The notes under the pieces were generated by a model. It did not search any database, was not told the origin of the DNA, and saw only the letters and a program-made list of their open reading frames with translations. The translations under genes and the position numbers were made by a program. Shown here piece by piece: positions 25,250-35,752 of a DNA stretch of 64,000 nt. The stretch's first letter is position 1. The number at the start of each line of letters is the position of its first letter. The DNA is from Methanococcoides methylutens (GTDB lineage Archaea; Halobacteriota; Methanosarcinia; Methanosarcinales; Methanosarcinaceae): NCBI RefSeq assembly GCF_000765475.1, contig NZ_JRHO01000014.1:699687-763686 (forward strand). Direction: 5' to 3'.

Positions 25250-26719
25250 ATGGAGAGGGATATCAGAATACTGCATACTGCTGACACACATATCGGATAC
25301 CGGCAGTACCATAGTGAAGTACGCAGGCAGGATTTTATTGATGCTTTTTCCAGGGCCATTGATGATGCCATTGAGATGAAGATGGATGCTGTTGTCCATG
25401 CAGGCGACCTTTTTGATTCAAGGAACCCTACACTTGAGGATATCCTTGACACGATCAATATACTCTCAAAACTAAAACCATACAATATCCCGTTCCTATC
25501 CATAGTGGGAAACCACGAAAGCAAGCAGCATACCCAATGGCTGGACCTGTTCGAAAGCATGGAGATCGCTATTCGACTTGGGACCGAACCATACAGGATA
25601 GAGAATATTGCCATCTATGGAATCGACAATGTCCCGAGATCGAAGATACCGCTTTTTGATTATTCGAAGTTCACAGATGAGAACTGTGGAGAATTCAACA
25701 TTGTAGTAATGCACCAGCTGATGTCCCCATTTCCCTTTGGAGAGTGGGATTGCGAGGAGGTCATCAACGGCCTTCCTTTTGACGTACATGCCATCCTGCT
25801 GGGAGATTATCACAAGAATGAAAAGACCAAGGTCGATCAGACGTGGGTGACCTATTGTGGCAGCACAGAACGTAACAGTGCTTCCGAAAGCGATGCCCGC
25901 ACGTATAACATTATTACGATAAATGATAACGGCATCGAGATCGGTAGACGTAACATCCTCACCCGCGAGTTCCTGTTCATTCCGGTTGAGCTGCGGGACA
26001 GGGATAGTGCCTATGAGCTGATCATCAATACCGTCAAAGAATATGATGTTGCTGAAAAGGTTGTCTTTGTAGACATTTCAGGAAACCCGGAAGTAGCTAT
26101 ATCCTACAATGAGATAGAGGAATTCCTTGCGAACCAGAATGTCCTTGTAACCCGTATAAGAGACCTGAGGCGAGGAGAAGAGATCCAGGAAGATAAAACA
26201 GTAGAGGTTTCCTTTTCAGATCCTGATGAAGCAGTCAAAAAAGAGATCAGGAAAATGACACTTACCAGCGGTGGCATCATGATAGACGAAATAGTAAGGG
26301 ATCCGGGCGTTCCGAAGACAAAGGTCGACCTTGAAGCTGAAACACGAATAGGCAACCTCCTTTCAAGTATTGATTTTATGCAGCCGGGAACCTACATGAT
26401 CCCAAAGGATACAAAAAGCGACGAGGGTACGGAAATCGTAACAGTTGCTGATGAGACTGACATACAGGAAGCAACGGATATTCAGAAGGTTGCAGAAACT
26501 CCCGGAGAATATAGCGTCCACAATGTGGCCGAAAAAGATGCTGCCCCAGGGGAGATCGTGGATAAGGCTGAAACTGAGCCACCAGAAACAGATGATGAAA
26601 CACCCAAACGACCTGACATAACCTCTGATATGACCGAAACATCTGAGACCAATGGTTCAAAGGAAAAGGAAGTTGAAGCCCCGAAACCAAAGCAATACAA
26701 TCTGGGGGACTACCTGTGA
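25250..26719 (+). CDS. mre11: double-strand break repair nuclease Mre11
   Basis: Mre11 is the nuclease of the Mre11-Rad50 DNA-end processing complex. The 489-residue product has all the phosphoesterase motifs: LHTADTHIG, HAGDLFD, VGNHES, VMHQLM, LLGDYHKNE and YCGSTER. The catalytic domain is followed by a capping domain. An acidic, low-complexity C-terminal extension (about 385-489, rich in E/T/D) ends in the conserved-looking YNLGDYL. The stop overlaps the rad50 start by four bases. Confidence 0.96.
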   Translation: MERDIRILHTADTHIGYRQYHSEVRRQDFIDAFSRAIDDAIEMKMDAVVHAGDLFDSRNPTLEDILDTINILSKLKPYNIPFLSIVGNHESKQHTQWLDLFESMEIAIRLGTEPYRIENIAIYGIDNVPRSKIPLFDYSKFTDENCGEFNIVVMHQLMSPFPFGEWDCEEVINGLPFDVHAILLGDYHKNEKTKVDQTWVTYCGSTERNSASESDARTYNIITINDNGIEIGRRNILTREFLFIPVELRDRDSAYELIINTVKEYDVAEKVVFVDISGNPEVAISYNEIEEFLANQNVLVTRIRDLRRGEEIQEDKTVEVSFSDPDEAVKKEIRKMTLTSGGIMIDEIVRDPGVPKTKVDLEAETRIGNLLSSIDFMQPGTYMIPKDTKSDEGTEIVTVADETDIQEATDIQKVAETPGEYSVHNVAEKDAAPGEIVDKAETEPPETDDETPKRPDITSDMTETSETNGSKEKEVEAPKPKQYNLGDYL

Positions 26720-29382
26720 AACTAAAAAGGGTACGTGTTGAGAACATTAGAAGCTACAAAGACCTTGACATAAGCTTTGAGGATGGCGTTACCGTAGTAT
26801 CCGGTGTGAACGGGAGCGGTAAATCAAGCCTGCTGGAAGCATGTTTTACAGGACTTTTCGGTAGCCGCACCCTTTCAAAGGAATTCGTGCTTTCCGACCT
26901 TATCCGCAAGGGTGCAACAAAGGCATCAATTCTTGTTGATTTCGATAATAAAGGGCATGAGTACAACATTGAGCAGGGGTACAAGGTAAATCCTAAAACC
27001 GGAAGTGCATCCAACAACAGGTCGATATTCAAGATCGACGGGGGTATCATGGTCGACCAGGCCAGCCAGACCTATGAAGCTGTAAAAGCACTTCTGAAAA
27101 TGGATGAAGAAGCCTACAAGAACTGCGTGTACATCCGCCAGGGAGAGATCGATGTCCTGATAAACGCAAAGACAAAGGACCGGCAGCGGATGATCGATGA
27201 CCTGCTCCAGATAGGGAAACTGGAAGAATATAGGGAGCGTGCAGGTAGTGCGAGGAAAGGTGTGGGGAGGCACCAAAGAGAAACAGACGCTCGCATCAAG
27301 GACAACGTTGCAGATATTGAAAATCTTGAAAGCTCCAACCCATACCAGGTGCTCAATACAGTTAAAACTGAGATGAATGAGACCGGAGCGAAAATTACTG
27401 ATCTTGAGGCTAAGAAAGAGCGTGCCAGGGGAATTGTGGAATCTATTGAGGAGAAGATAAGCAAATACACAGAAACCCAGGAGCAAAAGAAAGCGATCGA
27501 TCTTGAGATAAAAGGCTTCAAATCAAAGATAACGACAACATACAGTGAAATTGAGAGATCCAGGAACCTTGTTGGTTCCGGCAGGCAGGAAGTCCAACAC
27601 CTTAAAAGTGCAACTGCCGACCTTTCCAAACAGATAAATGTTCCAGAAGATGCTGATATTGAAAATTATAGCGCATCCATAGAGAAAGAGGAAGTCAGTG
27701 CCCGGGATGCTGTCAGCAGCATTGTCAAAAAGAAGGAACTGGCACAAAGCAGTGAGCGATCGCAGAATGAATTCCTGCTTAACCTGAATGAACAGGTAAA
27801 GACGACTTCCATTGCCATACAGAATAAGGAAGACAAGATCAAAACCATCCAGGAAGATATTGAAAGGCTTTCTGCAGAAAGCAGGAAACTGGATGATGAG
27901 AACACTAAAAGATCAAAGGAAGCCTCTGAACTTGGATTCTCTGCTGATAAACTTGAAAATATAGAGGATATTGCTGAACTTCTTAGCATGAAGCAAAAAC
28001 AGCTTCACGGAAAGGAAAGGGAAAGGTCTGCCACCCTTGCAGAGCTTGAGAAAAGGGTGAAGAAAGCCAAGGAGCTACTGGATAAGGGGCTGTGTCCCAC
28101 CTGTGGACAGGACCTTAAAGGCTCAAAGATATGCGAAGAAACAGCAGTGGATGAAGAACAAAAGGCCGGGATGTTGGCCAAGCTCCAGAGCATACGTTCC
28201 GAACAGGCAGATGTGGAAACAAAAGTGGAACGTGTCAGGAAAGCAAAGGAAATTGCAAAAAGCATCGCAGAGAACGATCACCTGACCCAGATAAAGAAGA
28301 AAGACATCGCTGCCAATGAGAAGCTGATCGAAGAGAACCACAGGACCATCAGGGAAGAGAGGAAGAAGGAAAGTGGTCTTAAAGAACAGATCACGGAGGT
28401 CACGATATCGATCAGGAAGATCAGGGAAGAGATTATTTCCCTGGGAAAAGATGAAGCTGCTGCGAGGGATTCTCACAAAGTTGTAAAAGAGAAGCTCGAT
28501 GTTGCAAGAAAGATACGAACTAACCAGCTTGAGATCGGGAAAGTCCAGACCAGTATGCAGCGATTGCAGGATGGGATCAATAACGGACTGGAAAAGGTAG
28601 GACTGTTCGAAGATCAGATAAAGGATAGGAAGCAGCGTCTTGGCCAGCTGGAAAAGGTACTTGGCGATGTCAATATAGATAAGCTCCAGACCGAAAAGAT
28701 GCAGTACGATAGTGCATACAAGGGTATAGTTTCCGAACTGGAAAGATCAAACCTGAGGATAAAGGAGCTTCACAAGGAAGTAGGACGCGTCGAAGGAGAG
28801 ATCAAAAGGCTTAATGAACTTCAGCAAAAGCACAAGTTGCTTACGAACAAGAAGGAGTTCCTGGCGGCCGTTTACAATGACGCGGAAGAACTTGAGACCA
28901 TGTACATACGCCTGCGTGCTGAAATGCGTGCAAAGAATATTGATGCGCTTGACAGGTTACTCAATGAGATATTCTCTTTCATGTACACCAATAATGCATA
29001 TTCGCACATCAAGCTTGACCAGGAGTATAATCTAACCATCTATGAAAAAGATGGCACTGCTCTTGAACCTAAATTGTTGAGCGGAGGCGAGAGAGCGATA
29101 TTCAACCTTGTGCTAAGGTGTGCCATCTATCGTTTATTGTCACATTCGCCCGGAACTACAGGCAGTTCAGAGCTCCCACCGCTGATACTGGACGAGCCCA
29201 CTGTGTTCCTTGACCGCGGGCACGTCCACCAGTTGATAAAGCTCATTGACATGATGCGGGACATCGGTGTTGGACAGATCCTGATAGTATCACACGATGA
29301 ATCACTGATCGATTCTGCAGATCATGTGTTCGTAGTTGAGAAAGACCCCATCACAAATAGTTCTTCCATTTCCGCAAAATGA
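26716..29382 (+). CDS. rad50: DNA double-strand break repair ATPase Rad50
   Basis: Rad50 is the ABC-type ATPase partner of Mre11. The 888-residue product has an N-terminal Walker A (GVNGSGKSS), long coiled coils, a zinc hook CPTC at about residue 460, the ABC signature LLSGGERA and Walker B LILDEPTVFLD. The start is a GTG that overlaps the mre11 stop. Length and layout are standard for archaeal Rad50. Confidence 0.96.
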   Translation: MKLKRVRVENIRSYKDLDISFEDGVTVVSGVNGSGKSSLLEACFTGLFGSRTLSKEFVLSDLIRKGATKASILVDFDNKGHEYNIEQGYKVNPKTGSASNNRSIFKIDGGIMVDQASQTYEAVKALLKMDEEAYKNCVYIRQGEIDVLINAKTKDRQRMIDDLLQIGKLEEYRERAGSARKGVGRHQRETDARIKDNVADIENLESSNPYQVLNTVKTEMNETGAKITDLEAKKERARGIVESIEEKISKYTETQEQKKAIDLEIKGFKSKITTTYSEIERSRNLVGSGRQEVQHLKSATADLSKQINVPEDADIENYSASIEKEEVSARDAVSSIVKKKELAQSSERSQNEFLLNLNEQVKTTSIAIQNKEDKIKTIQEDIERLSAESRKLDDENTKRSKEASELGFSADKLENIEDIAELLSMKQKQLHGKERERSATLAELEKRVKKAKELLDKGLCPTCGQDLKGSKICEETAVDEEQKAGMLAKLQSIRSEQADVETKVERVRKAKEIAKSIAENDHLTQIKKKDIAANEKLIEENHRTIREERKKESGLKEQITEVTISIRKIREEIISLGKDEAAARDSHKVVKEKLDVARKIRTNQLEIGKVQTSMQRLQDGINNGLEKVGLFEDQIKDRKQRLGQLEKVLGDVNIDKLQTEKMQYDSAYKGIVSELERSNLRIKELHKEVGRVEGEIKRLNELQQKHKLLTNKKEFLAAVYNDAEELETMYIRLRAEMRAKNIDALDRLLNEIFSFMYTNNAYSHIKLDQEYNLTIYEKDGTALEPKLLSGGERAIFNLVLRCAIYRLLSHSPGTTGSSELPPLILDEPTVFLDRGHVHQLIKLIDMMRDIGVGQILIVSHDESLIDSADHVFVVEKDPITNSSSISAK

Positions 29383-29492: not shown

Positions 29493-30263
29493 ATGAGCTC
29501 CGAAAACAGGGACTTTGTTATAGAAAGGCTTGAGCGAAAACTGACTGAAAAGGAAGAAGAGATAGAGACGATCAGCACCAAACTTCGTGATTCTATCATG
29601 AAAGAACTTCGCGAGAACCTGAAGAATGACCTCGATATAAACAACCGTCTTGTCATGATCGAGCAGAAGGTTCAGGAGCTTTCAAGCAATTTAAGTGGTG
29701 TTATGGATGAGTTGCTCGACCAGAAATCACAGATCAGGTCAATGAGCACAACCACTCGAAAAGAAAACACTGAACCATTTAAAGTGACAGCAACACAAAA
29801 TCCTTTCAACCCCCCTGCACCAAAACCTGTTGAGGTTTCGGGGAAAAAAGGTCAGCTTGCAGATTCCCTGTTCGGTCAGAAAAAAACCACACCAACCACA
29901 ATTCCCGAAAGGAACATAACTGAACCACCAGTACCAAAGATGACAGCCCCTGAATCAAAAACATCTTCAGGATCACAGTGGAGCAAACTGGTAAACCCGA
30001 ACGAGGTCAACATGGAGATCAGGGAAATAAGGACCGAGGAACCTGTACAGGAGCAAATAAGGGATATACCATCCGAATATATTGTAGCGGATGGGATCGA
30101 TGCGCCCCGGGACAGGAATTATTCAAGACCTCCGAAAGATGAATGTGAATATATCGTTGCGGAGGAAGGCAAACCTTCCCGAACTCGCTCAGAAACAGAG
30201 TATGAGACCGTAGAAGACCGTGATGATGAAGATACTGTCGTCACAACGACCCGCAAGAAATAA
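29493..30263 (+). CDS. coiled-coil protein of unknown function between rad50 and smc
   Basis: I do not recognise the family. The 256-residue product has a heptad-rich coiled coil (about 6-85, ERLERKLTEKEEEIETIS), a Pro/Thr/Lys-rich disordered middle (about 86-165) and an acidic C-terminus in which EYIVA occurs twice (about 190-225), with a related EYETVED near 240. There is no membrane segment or signal peptide. It has its own 110-base upstream spacer and ends 26 bases before smc, so it probably shares a transcript with smc-scpA-scpB. A chromosome-associated adaptor is plausible but inferred. Confidence 0.75.
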   Translation: MSSENRDFVIERLERKLTEKEEEIETISTKLRDSIMKELRENLKNDLDINNRLVMIEQKVQELSSNLSGVMDELLDQKSQIRSMSTTTRKENTEPFKVTATQNPFNPPAPKPVEVSGKKGQLADSLFGQKKTTPTTIPERNITEPPVPKMTAPESKTSSGSQWSKLVNPNEVNMEIREIRTEEPVQEQIRDIPSEYIVADGIDAPRDRNYSRPPKDECEYIVAEEGKPSRTRSETEYETVEDRDDEDTVVTTTRKK

Positions 30264-30289: not shown

Positions 30290-33200
30290 GTGTACATCAA
30301 AGAAATTGAATTTACAAACTTCAAATCTTTTGGGAAAAAAATAAAAATACCATTCTTTGATGATTTTACCACCATATCCGGACCAAACGGAAGTGGAAAA
30401 TCCAATATCATCGACGGGATACTTTTTGTGCTCGGGCTTTCCAGCTCACGTACCCTGAGGGCTGAAAAACTGACAGACCTTATTTACAATGGTGATAAGG
30501 CAAAAAAGCCTGATTTCGCACAGGTCACGATAAAGTTCGATAATGCCGATCGCGAGATGCCTGTGGACGAGGAAGAGATCACCATCAGCAGGAAGATCAG
30601 GGAAACAGAGAACGGATATTATAGTTATTTCTATTTCAACGGGAAGGCGGTCAGCCTTACAGACATCCACAACCACCTTGCAAAAGCACGTGTGACCCCT
30701 GAAGGATATAATGTGGTCATGCAGGGTGATGTTACCCGTATCATCACCATGACAGCAGGTGAGCGCCGCAAGATCATAGATGAGATCGCAGGCGTTGCGG
30801 AATTCGACAACAAAAGAGACAGGGCTCTGAACGAACTGGAGATCGTAAGGGAGCGTGTCGAAAGGGCTGACATATTAATAGAAGAGGTTGAGAAGCAGCT
30901 GGAGAAGCTCAAGGTCGAGCGTGACCAGGCTGTGAAGTACCAGAGCCTCAAACAGGAAAAAATGAAGTTCGAAGGCTTCGTACTTCTTGCAAAGCTCAAG
31001 GATGCAAGGGTGGAACTTGAGAACGTGAACCTGGACATAGATGCAAAAAAGGAAGTCCAGGAAAAATTGCAGCAAGCCCTTGAACAGAAGCAGGAGAAAC
31101 TGGAAGAGCTTGAGAAAGAACTTCAGGAGCTTACCTCCGAGATCCAGAGGATGGGAGAGGACGAGCAGATCCAGGTCAAGAAGGACATCGAGGAGATAAA
31201 AGGAGAGGTCTCAAGATGTGTCAACAGCATAGAACTTGCAGATAATGAGATCGAAGACATTGATTCCAGGCGTAAGAAAGCGTTCCTTGATATCGAGCAA
31301 ACGAAGAACAGGGTCAATGAGATAGATTCAAAGCTGTCTGAGGAAACACTCCGTAAGGACAGTATCTTTTCAGAGATATCCGAAAGAAAGACCGAGAGGA
31401 TGATCCTGCAAAGCAGGATAGCGGATGTGGATGAGAAGTTCGCCCAGACCAGGGATGAACTTACAACATTCAAGAATGAACTGGAAAATTTCAGGAACGA
31501 CAAGAGCGAGCTGATGCGACAGGAAGATCGCCTGCTTGACTCCCTGAGAAGAAGGTCAGCAGAAGTAAGGGATATCGAAAACGAGATCGAAGATGCAAAG
31601 GTTAAAGCACAATCTTCAGACAGCGATACAAAATCTGCGCAATATGAGATAGAGAAAAATACCGAGCAGATAAATTCCCTGACAAAGGACCTTGATGACC
31701 TTGAAAGCAATCGTTTCCAGATAAAGACCGTAGTAACAGACCTTGAAGCTACGCTCAGAAAACAGCAGCAAGATTACGCAATGCTGGAAGCACGTGTCCG
31801 TGCAGCAGAGGATACAAGCAATTATTCCAAAGCTGTGGACATGATAATCGCCGAGAAGAAACACCACGGACTTCCCGGAATCTACGGTACCATCGCCGAA
31901 CTTGGAAGCGTGGACCAGAAATATTCCACAGCCCTTGGTGTTGCAGCAGGTGGACGTATGCAGGCGATCGTTGTGGAAACTGACCAGGACGCATCACGTG
32001 GCATACAGTTTTTGAAACAGCAGCGCGGAGGACGTGCAACCTTCCTGCCACTTAACAAGATGGAGGCAAGGCGGCCTTACAAGGACCTTTCCGACCGCCA
32101 GGGCGTCATCGGCTATGCCATTGACCTGATCGACTTTGACCCAAGGTTCGAGGCTGCATACTGGTACGTATTCAGGGACACACTTATTGTCGACACACTT
32201 GAAAATGCACGCCGTCTCATCGGCGGTCTTCGCATGGTCACACTCGAAGGAGAGGTCATTGAAAAGAGCGGTGCAATGACCGGCGGGTCCATGCAAAGGA
32301 AGTCAGGACTCTCATTTGCAGCATCTGAAAAGGACAAGCTCATAAAGATCGCTGAAAAACTTACCGAATTTGAGTCAAGACGCAATACTGCGATCAAGAA
32401 GCTGGACAGCGTTGAGAGCCATATTGCAGATATTAACCGTGAGATCCATGAGCTGGAGAAGGAGATCTCAAAGAAGGAAATGATCTTTGAGGAGATCGGC
32501 AGCAGGGCAGAGCGTCTCAGCCAGCTGATCGAAGCCAAGAACAGCGAACTTTCAGAGATAGAAGAACAGCGATCAAAGCTCCGCGAGGAAATGGAACTGG
32601 TCGTTGCCCAAAAGAATGAGAAGGATGAAAGATCCGGGGAACTGGAAGAGAAGATCGCTGTTATTGAGGAAAAGCTTTCCGAATCAGAGATACCTGAACT
32701 TAACAAACAGGCTGAACGCATCGATGAAGAGATGCGCAGGCTGGACGGGCGTATCCGTGACATTGAAGCTGACATCAATGCACTGAACCTTGACCGCGAG
32801 TATGCATCATCCAGGATAGAAGACAGTCGCCAGCTTGTCAAGGAAATGGATGAAAAGAGATCCACACACCGTGAACGTGTGGACGGCTATAAAGCGAAGA
32901 TAACCGAGCTGGAAGCCACCCTTAAGAGCAAGCAGCAGCGTGAACAGGAACTTACGGAAGAACTTAAGGAGATGCAACAGAAGCGCGCCATTAAGCAAAC
33001 CGAGTATAACGCTGCCGAAAAGGACCTTCTTGCCACCAGATCAAGACTGGACGATGCTGACAAGGCCATGATGGCACTGGAAGCCACACTGAGCGCCCTT
33101 GTTGACCAGACAAAGGACCTGAAGGAAGAACTGGACAGGCGCGGCATCGAAGAGGTCGAAGATGTACCAAATTACGAGACCGTCAGCACAAGGATAGCAT

Positions 33201-33814
33201 CCATAGAAAAGGCTATGGAAAGGCTTGAACCTGTGAACATGAGGGCAATTGATGAGTATGACGAGGTTGATGCAAGGGTTGTGGACCTTAAGACCAGAAG
33301 AGCCATCCTCTTCAATGAAAGGGAACAGATCCTCGACCGTATCGACCAGTACGAGACCCTGAAGAAAGATGCGTTCATGGAAACATACAACGGCATCAAT
33401 GAACCTTTCAAAGAGATATTCAACGAGCTTTCCGATGGTAGCGGAGAACTCGTACTTGATGATTACGAAGATCCTTTCAATGGAGGACTGACACTTCGGG
33501 CACAGCCAAAAGAGAAAACGCTCCAGCGACTGGAAGCGATGTCAGGTGGAGAGAAAAGTCTTACGGCCCTGGCTTTCGTGTTCGCTATCCAGCAATACCG
33601 CCCGGCTCCTTTCTATGCATTTGACGAGATCGACATGTTCCTTGACGGTGCAAATGCGGACAGGGTCGCCCAGCGTGTGAAGAAGGCCGGAACAAAAGCA
33701 CAGTTCATTGTAGTATCCCTGCGTAAACCGATGATCGAAGCGGCTGAACGTACCATCGGAGTCACCATGCAGGAGAACAATATCACAAGCATTACGGGTG
33801 TGAAATTACGTTGA
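30290..33814 (+). CDS. smc: chromosome segregation protein SMC
   Basis: SMC is the condensin ATPase that organises the chromosome. The 1174-residue product has Walker A GPNGSGKSN near residue 32, two long coiled coils, a hinge region (about 520-670, GLPGIYGTIAELGSVDQKY to EKSGAMTGGSM), signature MSGGEKSLTALAFVFAIQ and Walker B FYAFDEIDMFLD. The start is a GTG at 30290. The stop overlaps the scpA TTG start. The condensin partners ScpA and ScpB follow. Confidence 0.97.
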   Translation: MYIKEIEFTNFKSFGKKIKIPFFDDFTTISGPNGSGKSNIIDGILFVLGLSSSRTLRAEKLTDLIYNGDKAKKPDFAQVTIKFDNADREMPVDEEEITISRKIRETENGYYSYFYFNGKAVSLTDIHNHLAKARVTPEGYNVVMQGDVTRIITMTAGERRKIIDEIAGVAEFDNKRDRALNELEIVRERVERADILIEEVEKQLEKLKVERDQAVKYQSLKQEKMKFEGFVLLAKLKDARVELENVNLDIDAKKEVQEKLQQALEQKQEKLEELEKELQELTSEIQRMGEDEQIQVKKDIEEIKGEVSRCVNSIELADNEIEDIDSRRKKAFLDIEQTKNRVNEIDSKLSEETLRKDSIFSEISERKTERMILQSRIADVDEKFAQTRDELTTFKNELENFRNDKSELMRQEDRLLDSLRRRSAEVRDIENEIEDAKVKAQSSDSDTKSAQYEIEKNTEQINSLTKDLDDLESNRFQIKTVVTDLEATLRKQQQDYAMLEARVRAAEDTSNYSKAVDMIIAEKKHHGLPGIYGTIAELGSVDQKYSTALGVAAGGRMQAIVVETDQDASRGIQFLKQQRGGRATFLPLNKMEARRPYKDLSDRQGVIGYAIDLIDFDPRFEAAYWYVFRDTLIVDTLENARRLIGGLRMVTLEGEVIEKSGAMTGGSMQRKSGLSFAASEKDKLIKIAEKLTEFESRRNTAIKKLDSVESHIADINREIHELEKEISKKEMIFEEIGSRAERLSQLIEAKNSELSEIEEQRSKLREEMELVVAQKNEKDERSGELEEKIAVIEEKLSESEIPELNKQAERIDEEMRRLDGRIRDIEADINALNLDREYASSRIEDSRQLVKEMDEKRSTHRERVDGYKAKITELEATLKSKQQREQELTEELKEMQQKRAIKQTEYNAAEKDLLATRSRLDDADKAMMALEATLSALVDQTKDLKEELDRRGIEEVEDVPNYETVSTRIASIEKAMERLEPVNMRAIDEYDEVDARVVDLKTRRAILFNEREQILDRIDQYETLKKDAFMETYNGINEPFKEIFNELSDGSGELVLDDYEDPFNGGLTLRAQPKEKTLQRLEAMSGGEKSLTALAFVFAIQQYRPAPFYAFDEIDMFLDGANADRVAQRVKKAGTKAQFIVVSLRKPMIEAAERTIGVTMQENNITSITGVKLR

Positions 33815-34632
33815 ACGATCTTTCTGAAAATATCCAGGAAAGCGAAGGCAATATCCAGAAAATAACTGGCACCTCCGACAGCTCTGTTGACCCGGAATTT
33901 TTGGAAAAACTACGAAGCCTCGGTGTTGATGAATCCCTTATAGAGTTTTCAGATGATGTACTCTGCGAACCCGTGGAGATCTTCGTAAATCTTGCCAAGA
34001 ACGGTGACATCAACCCCTGGGATATCGATATCGTCCAGGCTACAGACAAGTTCCTTGCATACATTGAAGATATGAAGCTCATGGACCTGAGGATATCGGG
34101 CAGAACACTTTTGTATGCAGCCATACTCCTCAGGATGAAATCAACAGGTATCGTTCAGGAAGAAGAGGAGGAAGAGGAAGATTTCCTGGACGACGACATG
34201 GATTTCTATGAAATTGAAGAATACCCGGTCCCAAAACTACCCATCCGCCGTACTGCGACACGCCCTGTAACCCTTCAGGAGCTTATTACGGAACTTAAAA
34301 AAGCAGAGAAGGTCGAGACCAGAAGAAAGGACAGAAGAATACGCCATCGTATCGAGGTAATGGACAGGGCGACCACAGATGATGTCCTTGGTATCGCGCA
34401 TGAGGAAGATATCAGGGGCAGGGTGGACACGCTTTATGAGTATCTCGAAGAGCTGTTCAGGGATCGAGAAGAAGTTCTTTTCTCGGACCTTATCGATAAT
34501 TCCAACAGCCGCTCCGAAAAGATGATGACATACATTTCACTTCTGTTCCTTGCAGCTGAAAAGAGGGTATGGTTATCACAGGAAGAACTTTTTGGCGAGC
34601 TATATGTCCATCAGGGTTGCGCCATCGAATGA
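33811..34632 (+). CDS. scpA: segregation and condensation protein A
   Basis: ScpA is the kleisin that bridges SMC heads. The 273-residue product starts at a TTG overlapping the smc stop. An N-terminal extension of about 55 residues precedes the kleisin core (CEPVEIFVNLAKNGDINPWDIDIVQATDKFLAYI). An acidic linker rich in E/D (about 113-133) is followed by a C-terminal winged helix (VLFSDLIDNSNSRSEKMMTYISLLFLAAEKRVW). It is translationally coupled to smc. Confidence 0.93.
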   Translation: MNDLSENIQESEGNIQKITGTSDSSVDPEFLEKLRSLGVDESLIEFSDDVLCEPVEIFVNLAKNGDINPWDIDIVQATDKFLAYIEDMKLMDLRISGRTLLYAAILLRMKSTGIVQEEEEEEEDFLDDDMDFYEIEEYPVPKLPIRRTATRPVTLQELITELKKAEKVETRRKDRRIRHRIEVMDRATTDDVLGIAHEEDIRGRVDTLYEYLEELFRDREEVLFSDLIDNSNSRSEKMMTYISLLFLAAEKRVWLSQEELFGELYVHQGCAIE

Positions 34633-34648
34633 TTTTGAAGAGGAAAAT

Positions 34649-35752
34649 ATGAACGACAAGGAGATCATAGAAGCCGTACTTTTTGCGGCAGGGGGAGCTG
34701 TTGACACCCAGACGCTCGCGAAGGTCGTTAATAAGTCAGCAAAGAACATCACACCCGTTATCCAGACCCTTATGGAAGAGTATTCAGCAAGGGACTCCGG
34801 CATGGAGATCGTCGACCTTGGAGGACGTTATGTGATGCAGGTCAAACCGAAGTATACCGACCTTGTAAGCCCGGTAGCTCCAAAAGAATTGAGAGCCCCG
34901 ATCCTTCGTACACTTTCCATGATAGCTTACCACCAGCCTGTGGTCCAATCAGAACTTGTGGACATGAGAGGCAATTCAACATACGACCACATACGTGAGC
35001 TTAAAGAAAGAGGATTTATCGAAGCAGTGCCTCACGGAAGGACAAAACTGCTCCAGACAACACCGCTTTTCGCAGATTACTTCGGACTTAGTTCCAACGA
35101 TCCGGAATCCATAAAGAAAAGGATCGTTGACCTTTCCCGGCAGCAGAGCGGGAAAGAAGGGCTTGACAGGTGGCTTGGAAGGAAGTTCGTGGGCATCACC
35201 CCCATGTACAGGTCACTTGCGGATCTTTGCGGGATCAAGGATTACAGGATCATCAATGCCTATAACCCCACAGAAGAAGAGCTTGAGAGCCTTGCCGACG
35301 TGTTTAAGCTGGTAGTCTCCAGAGGCTATGAGGAAAAGGTCAGTAAATTTTACGACGGAGAGATAATCGAGGTCAGGTCCACTACCTTTGGCGACATAAT
35401 CGATTCCATAAACGCACTTGAGAGCGTTGCAGATCCTGAAAAATCAAAGGAGAACATCGAACTGATAACAGATCTGCGTGACAGGTATGTGTCAAAGGCG
35501 CTGGTCATCAGCAAGAAGGTGAAACCTGCAACAGACATGATCGCACGTATCGTCAGCGACCTGAGGCTTGGAGTTTCTGCCGAAGGTTGTGTCATAGCGC
35601 CCGATTATGGTACCTCCAGTGAGGGAGTGAACATCTCCGAGGGAGCCGATATCCTTGTTCCGACACACTCAAAGGTGGAAGGGGACATTGTGGACAGGGT
35701 CTGCAGGAAATATGATGCCATCATAGATGGCCTGAAAGATCTTGAAAAATAA
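34649..35752 (+). CDS. scpB: segregation and condensation protein B with a long C-terminal extension
   Basis: ScpB binds ScpA and contributes tandem winged helices to the condensin complex. Residues 1 to about 165 match ScpB (NDKEIIEAVLFAAGGAVDTQTLAK, LRTLSMIAYHQPVVQSELVDMRG, LLQTTPLFADYFGL). About 200 further residues follow, including DRWLGRKFVGITPMYRSLADLC and a C-terminal VNISEGADILVPTHSKVEG, which I do not recognise. Bacterial ScpB is about 190-200 residues, so the extension roughly doubles it. I chose the ATG at 34649 over an in-frame ATG at 34550 inside scpA because the ScpB core begins right there. Confidence 0.9.
   Translation: MNDKEIIEAVLFAAGGAVDTQTLAKVVNKSAKNITPVIQTLMEEYSARDSGMEIVDLGGRYVMQVKPKYTDLVSPVAPKELRAPILRTLSMIAYHQPVVQSELVDMRGNSTYDHIRELKERGFIEAVPHGRTKLLQTTPLFADYFGLSSNDPESIKKRIVDLSRQQSGKEGLDRWLGRKFVGITPMYRSLADLCGIKDYRIINAYNPTEEELESLADVFKLVVSRGYEEKVSKFYDGEIIEVRSTTFGDIIDSINALESVADPEKSKENIELITDLRDRYVSKALVISKKVKPATDMIARIVSDLRLGVSAEGCVIAPDYGTSSEGVNISEGADILVPTHSKVEGDIVDRVCRKYDAIIDGLKDLEK

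Follow-up and report, generated by a model that had tools for sequence, protein, structure and literature searches.

A small helix-and-tail protein encoded directly upstream of smc across most sampled smc-bearing Halobacteriota

Introduction

Very little is known about the physiological roles of SMC proteins in archaea, according to a review (PMC9764264), and the loading and regulation of archaeal condensin are largely unknown. The window analyzed here, a 64,000-nucleotide stretch of the Methanococcoides methylutens genome, holds a gene for a 256-residue protein between rad50 and smc, raising the question of which of these neighbors, if either, the protein serves. A sequence-only reading of the locus had described a coiled-coil protein whose acidic tail carries two EYIVA repeats and knew of no described partner of this kind; our literature search likewise found no published description of such an SMC partner and no paper naming DUF7518, the Pfam family (PF24362) of which the protein is a divergent relative. 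What is new is an SMC-linked family that spans most of the sampled smc-bearing Halobacteriota and carries a short tail signature.

Results

smc is the constant neighbor

The position of the gene between rad50 and smc is borne out by the ORF coordinates (Table 1): its stop codon lies 26 bp before the GTG start codon of smc, and a 110-bp gap separates it from the end of rad50 at position 29382. The smc and scpA genes overlap by 4 bp and are followed by scpB, whose true start probably lies later than the first possible start codon used here. A scan with a sigma-70-type promoter model, which is unsuited to archaea, returned no promoter.

Table 1. Coordinates of the SMC-linked gene, its parts and its neighbors in the window
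Feature	Position	Strand	Basis or remark
mre11-rad50	25250..29382	+	neighbors in some Methanosarcinaceae only; outside the conserved unit
SMC-linked helix/tail protein	29493..30263	+	ORF, ATG start, 256 aa, stop codon included
N-terminal helix motif RDFVIERLERKL, residues 6-17	29508..29543	+	alignments A1, A2, A3
Coiled-coil segment, residues ~47-89	29631..29759	+	heptad test p<2e-4; AF2 helix 3-89
GVMDELLDQK, residues 69-78	29697..29726	+	best conserved block
Variable linker, predicted disordered, residues 90-173	29760..30011	+	AF2 pLDDT 40-50; highest dN
MEIREI, residues 174-179	30012..30029	+	Methanosarcinaceae tail motif, alignment A3
Tail motif copy 1, EYIVA, residues 195-199	30075..30089	+	sequence; family-wide motif
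Tail motif copy 2, EYIVA, residues 219-223	30147..30161	+	sequence; family-wide motif
Acidic C-terminus, ETEYETVEDRDDEDTVVTTTRKK region	30195..30260	+	weak beta hairpin, AF2
smc	30290..33814	+	TIGR02169, 1323 bits; GTG start at 30290
scpA (kleisin)	33811..34632	+	PF02616
scpB	34550..35752	+	PF04079; coordinates from first ATG/GTG/TTG of ORF, overlapping scpA

A single-sequence search detected relatives in 51 of the 60 Methanosarcinales genomes, and inspection of the DNA next to smc revealed the gene at each of the 50 smc loci retrieved, also where the sequence search had missed it (no complete smc was obtained for the genomes G021 and G059). Among the named relatives are Methanococcoides vulcani, Methanolobus, Methanosalsum natronophilum, Candidatus Methanoperedens nitroreducens and Candidatus Argoarchaeum; the other family labels used below, written with "-like", are inferred rather than recorded names. 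In 77 of 80 named loci smc lies directly 3′ of the gene, and the other three run off contig ends. Between the gene and smc there is often an overlap or a spacing of a few bases (-1 to 12 bp in several families), as in operons. The refuting condition set by the sequence-only reading, a lack of conservation beside smc, is contradicted: the adjacency extends through Methanosarcinales and most of Halobacteriota.

The other neighbors vary. The order rad50-gene-smc is seen in the window, Methanococcoides, Methanolobus and others, and of 78 named loci, 28 have rad50 adjacent upstream. The upstream place is taken by other genes, with smc kept, in Methanosarcina-like, ANME-2-like, Methanoperedens, haloarchaeal and Archaeoglobi-like genomes. 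In families f2-f5 (ANME-2-like, Methanoperedens and Argoarchaeum-like), scpA is on other contigs or, in a one-contig genome, 650 kb away, and the SMC-linked gene still touches smc. Since adjacency to rad50 and to scpA varies and adjacency to smc stays, smc is the one constant neighbor. The gene often found upstream in f2-f5 and in Archaeoglobi-like genomes is, as we read its sequence, presumably an aspartyl-tRNA synthetase, which suggests that the mre11-rad50 pair upstream is a local arrangement.

Three side observations concern these upstream genes. The aspartyl-tRNA synthetase-like gene lies directly upstream in L083, L086, L088, L221 and L222, and upstream of smc itself in L230; these loci represent several deep lineages, and this order may be ancestral. 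In one draft genome (locus L068, G022) the upstream rad50 carries an internal TAA and is split into three ORFs, through either decay or sequencing error. Mre11 of the window ends in QYNLGDYL (positions 26693-26716, the end of mre11), a form, Q(Y/H)NLGD(Y/F)(L/F), that is kept in 14 of 14 relatives and that resembles a PCNA-binding (PIP) box at the C-terminus.

The family is phylum-wide and includes DUF7518

Beyond the order, we sampled 148 Halobacteriota genomes, 122 with smc and 26 without detectable smc. By either of two profiles, PF24362 or A2, the gene was found 5′ of smc in 96 of the 122 smc-bearing genomes (~80%), and three more (G068, G077 and G182) have a candidate gene by eye. Of the PF24362 matches, 62 of 64 lie within 0.7 kb 5′ of smc. 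The same holds for 91 of 97 matches to the A2 profile, which was built without halobacterial rows and recovers the same haloarchaeal ORFs; the chance of such a position is ~2e-4 per match, a rough estimate from genome size. The 26 genomes without detectable smc gave no match to PF24362 and one to A2, which leaves the gene absent from smc-less genomes save for one orphan 74-aa copy, in genome G071. Families f6 (Methanotrichaceae-like), f11, f12, f17 and f20-f22 lack the gene and keep smc and scpA, so the gene is in principle dispensable for SMC function.

The orphan copy (L256:1605-1829) ends in SIIICD and comes from a genome of 1.2 Mb, 99% complete, in which neither smc nor scpA is detectable and AT-rich non-coding DNA lies where smc would follow; either condensin was lost recently or the assembly has a gap. 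In family f10, represented by mostly high-completeness genomes, both smc and scpA are missing.

DUF7518 is recorded in Pfam as a haloarchaeal family with no function, and our control search with the Pfam profile detected it in Haloferax volcanii. The window protein scores 19.0 bits against it, below the Pfam gathering cut-off of 27, and is therefore a divergent relative rather than a formal member. Bridging relatives score above the cut-off (L064, at 35.6 bits, and relatives in G030, G017, G014, G027 and G040), and an hhalign comparison of the Methanosarcinales and haloarchaeal sets gave a probability of 93.7% over 41 ungapped columns of the coiled-coil core, where GVMDELLDQK aligns to GLTEELVExK of the haloarchaeal proteins. 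Because genomic position is independent of sequence, chance matching between coiled coils is no longer a doubt, and haloarchaeal DUF7518 and the window protein belong to one family, of which DUF7518 is the short end. The family is not confined to Methanosarcinales: it also takes in DUF7518 and short Archaeoglobi-like proteins. The family is real, constrained and wider than the sequence-only reading supposed, and an anonymous Pfam family is joined to a much wider one.

One helix, a variable linker and a constrained tail

AlphaFold2 (AF2), run with 35 relatives, predicts a single helix at residues 3-89 (pLDDT ~90), disorder at 90-237, in keeping with the disordered middle foreseen from the sequence, and a weak hairpin at 238-253 (strands 238-242 and 249-253, pLDDT ~70). 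The claimed N-terminal coiled coil holds in part: canonical heptads are confined to residues ~47-89, where 10 of 12 a/d positions are hydrophobic and none of 5000 shuffles was as good, whereas residues 3-46 are helical without a heptad pattern (p=0.37). The family consensus of the N-terminal motif is RD(F/I/L)(V/L)(I/V)ERLE(R/K/Q)(K/Q)L, with R12, L13 and E14 invariant in all three alignments. In the tail, MEIREI has the counterpart FNIR[DE][VA] in relatives, and a C-terminal ExREDED...I is conserved (both alignment A3). In six Methanosarcina-like loci (L063, L067, L075, L079, L252 and L253) the N-terminal helix is enlarged by two to four copies of an S(I/V)(L/I)xELRxE(L/M) repeat.

Pairwise comparison with a relative at 87% identity gave an overall dN/dS of 0.18, indicating purifying selection, with 0.07 in the helix, 0.38 in the linker and 0.18 in the tail; with ratios this low, the ORF encodes a real, constrained protein. 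Searches of solved structures, PHROGs and viral contigs gave no match or relative for the window protein, and PADLOC gave generic coiled-coil matches only. A match to SKA2 (PF16740), at 17.7 bits against a cut-off of 30.1, is typical coiled-coil background and was rejected.

A five-residue tail signature

The window protein has exactly two EYIVA copies, as had been noted from the sequence. The repeat by itself is no more than mildly unusual, since shuffling the tail of this protein yields some repeated 5-mer with p~0.02, and it is the family-wide count that lies far beyond chance. A loose motif, (D/E/N)(Y/F/I/L/M/V/E)I(V/I)(A/C/V), is present in the tails of 88 of the 103 members, whereas shuffled tails would give 0.95. 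A strict form occurs 107 times against 0.14 expected; the set includes close relatives, so that these counts are not independent, and a few ORFs that were probably mispicked or mistrimmed (e.g. L115), and the gap is still two orders of magnitude. EYIVA is therefore a repeat in the window protein and, beyond that, one unit of a phylum-wide signature.

The signature takes the forms EYI[VI]A, DIIVA-stop and DIIVCD-stop, and its place and number vary: two internal copies in the window protein, three copies in Methanohalobium-like genomes, and one copy that forms the very C-terminus in haloarchaea (DIIVA-stop) and in Archaeoglobi-like genomes (DIIVCD-stop or a variant of it). Each of five haloarchaeal genomes has a single DIIVA-stop, always in the SMC-linked gene. 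In the genome of the window the only tail copies of EYI[VI]A are the two in the SMC-linked protein; the other in-frame EYI[IV]A hits are one in a long ORF that we take, from its sequence, to be a lysine 2,3-aminomutase, and a fourth in a 27-codon stretch. A docking code common to several proteins is not supported, the motif being essentially confined to the SMC-linked protein within genomes. The suggestion that the repeated motifs look like docking motifs is supported, and the signature may be a docking peptide.

The Methanocellales-like members (family f14: L233, L234, L235 and L251) keep the N-terminal helix and have lost the tail motif. Three of these four tails end in RFFHM- or RFFHL-like sequences, which are perhaps a replaced docking motif, and L233 ends in SFFKVSRNT.

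Discussion

A proposed accessory of SMC-ScpAB

With smc adjacent at each of the Methanosarcinales loci inspected and rad50 in only about a third of loci, the partner to consider is SMC rather than Rad50. From the gene, its conserved modules, its linkage to smc across the phylum and its motif, we infer self-association, docking on SMC and a role in loading or clustering, and the reading toward which we lean is that of a dedicated SMC-ScpAB (condensin) accessory, with a coiled coil for self-association and a tail for docking. The N-terminal helix and coiled coil would mediate self-association, and the long, disordered, acidic tail would offer one to three copies of the docking peptide (E/D)(Y/I)I(V/I)A, which most likely adds a strand to a site on the SMC complex or fits into a groove there. 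The dimer could then tether SMC complexes to each other, or to another partner that the conserved N-terminal helix binds, and such tethering may control where or how condensin loads. By analogy with ParB, we tentatively suggest that the family could be a loading or positioning factor of euryarchaeal condensin whose tail docks on SMC-ScpAB, although we rate this as improbable. An AF2 model of a read-through fusion of a relative to SMC residues 1-950, a weak test given the shallow alignment of 15 paired rows and the missing half of the SMC head, left the motifs disordered (pLDDT ~30), and comparing SMC columns between lineages with and without the partner revealed none that marks a binding site.

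The competing accounts can be weighed against the same observations. The absence of an SMC site in the conservation analysis would suit a tether to some other machine (the replisome, division ring, nucleoid or membrane), co-expressed with SMC and binding a different partner by its tail in the manner of the SSB or FtsZ tips, as would the two conserved ends, N-terminal helix and tail, around a spacer, and the haloarchaeal and Archaeoglobi-like members whose very last residues form an acidic-hydrophobic tip (SDIIVA-stop, DIIVCD-stop). We consider such a tether unlikely: the presence of the gene tracks smc in nearly all genomes, and other proteins of the genomes tested do not share its motif, whereas tips that bind hubs are often shared between proteins. 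It is doubtful, too, that the protein serves the assembly or stability of SMC, as a small chaperone with a coiled coil or a regulator of stoichiometry, with no action on DNA, that keeps the long nascent SMC coiled coil soluble or sets the SMC level. Its coiled-coil region, the solubilizing role that a disordered acidic tail could play, and its translation always just before smc, often with overlapping or nearly overlapping ends, agree with this idea, which leaves unexplained why a five-residue motif persists amid a diverging tail and is duplicated to two or three copies; SMC, moreover, manages without such a factor in the lineages that lack the gene.

Two further accounts fare worse. That the protein is a subunit or regulator of Mre11-Rad50, its place beside smc being incidental, draws on the gene order of the window, Methanococcoides, Methanolobus and others; given the minority of loci with rad50, the many lineages in which other genes stand upstream of an unchanged smc and the gap of 110 bp in the window itself, we regard it as very improbable, and synteny leads us to reject the Rad50-Mre11 partnership that the sequence-only reading had considered. 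An ORF that hitchhikes with smc, non-functional or fast-evolving, might have accounted for a linker so variable in length and sequence, and has almost no probability left: it is refuted by purifying selection (dN/dS of 0.07-0.18 in helix and tail), by residues invariant across families and by a motif conserved from Halobacteria to Archaeoglobi-like genomes.

For the favored accessory of SMC-ScpAB, a small gene adjoining smc, kept across most of the phylum with a five-residue signature, is a direct handle on condensin, and the family is present in Haloferax volcanii and in Methanosarcina-like genomes, both genetically tractable. In H. volcanii, loss of smc removes nine domain boundaries (PMC9764264). 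Phenotypes may be mild, since smc itself (HVO_0689) can be deleted there (PMC11276520).

Comparison with known systems

The archaea-specific SMC-related proteins Sph and ClsN are ATPases with Walker motifs (PMC9389158); the window protein shares their coiled coil and chromosome context and differs in having no ATPase domain. The role proposed here, in placing or organizing SMC complexes, would be analogous to that of ParB and of SegB, which is known from Sulfolobales (PMC12284271), whereas Pfam and NCBIfam searches found neither a ParB CTPase/HTH nor a SegB ribbon-helix-helix match in the window protein, in which no DNA-binding domain is seen and AF2 predicts one helix and disorder. Like ScpA and ScpB, the protein is a small non-SMC protein encoded with smc; unlike them, it has no match to PF02616 or PF04079 up to E 0.1, and replacement of ScpA by it is rejected because the same genomes also carry ScpA. 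HP24-Sph1 of Halobacterium is a possible precedent.

The C-terminal tips of SSB and FtsZ are acidic-hydrophobic docking peptides, and the tail may work in a like manner, as it too is disordered and acidic with a short hydrophobic motif; there is no homology, and the motif differs. The nearest likeness is to DUF7518, with which the window protein shares the position directly 5′ of smc, the coiled-coil block and a form of the tail motif; it differs in its extra N-terminal helix, its long linker and its two internal EYIVA motifs, with none at the C-terminus, where DUF7518 has a single DIIVA-stop.
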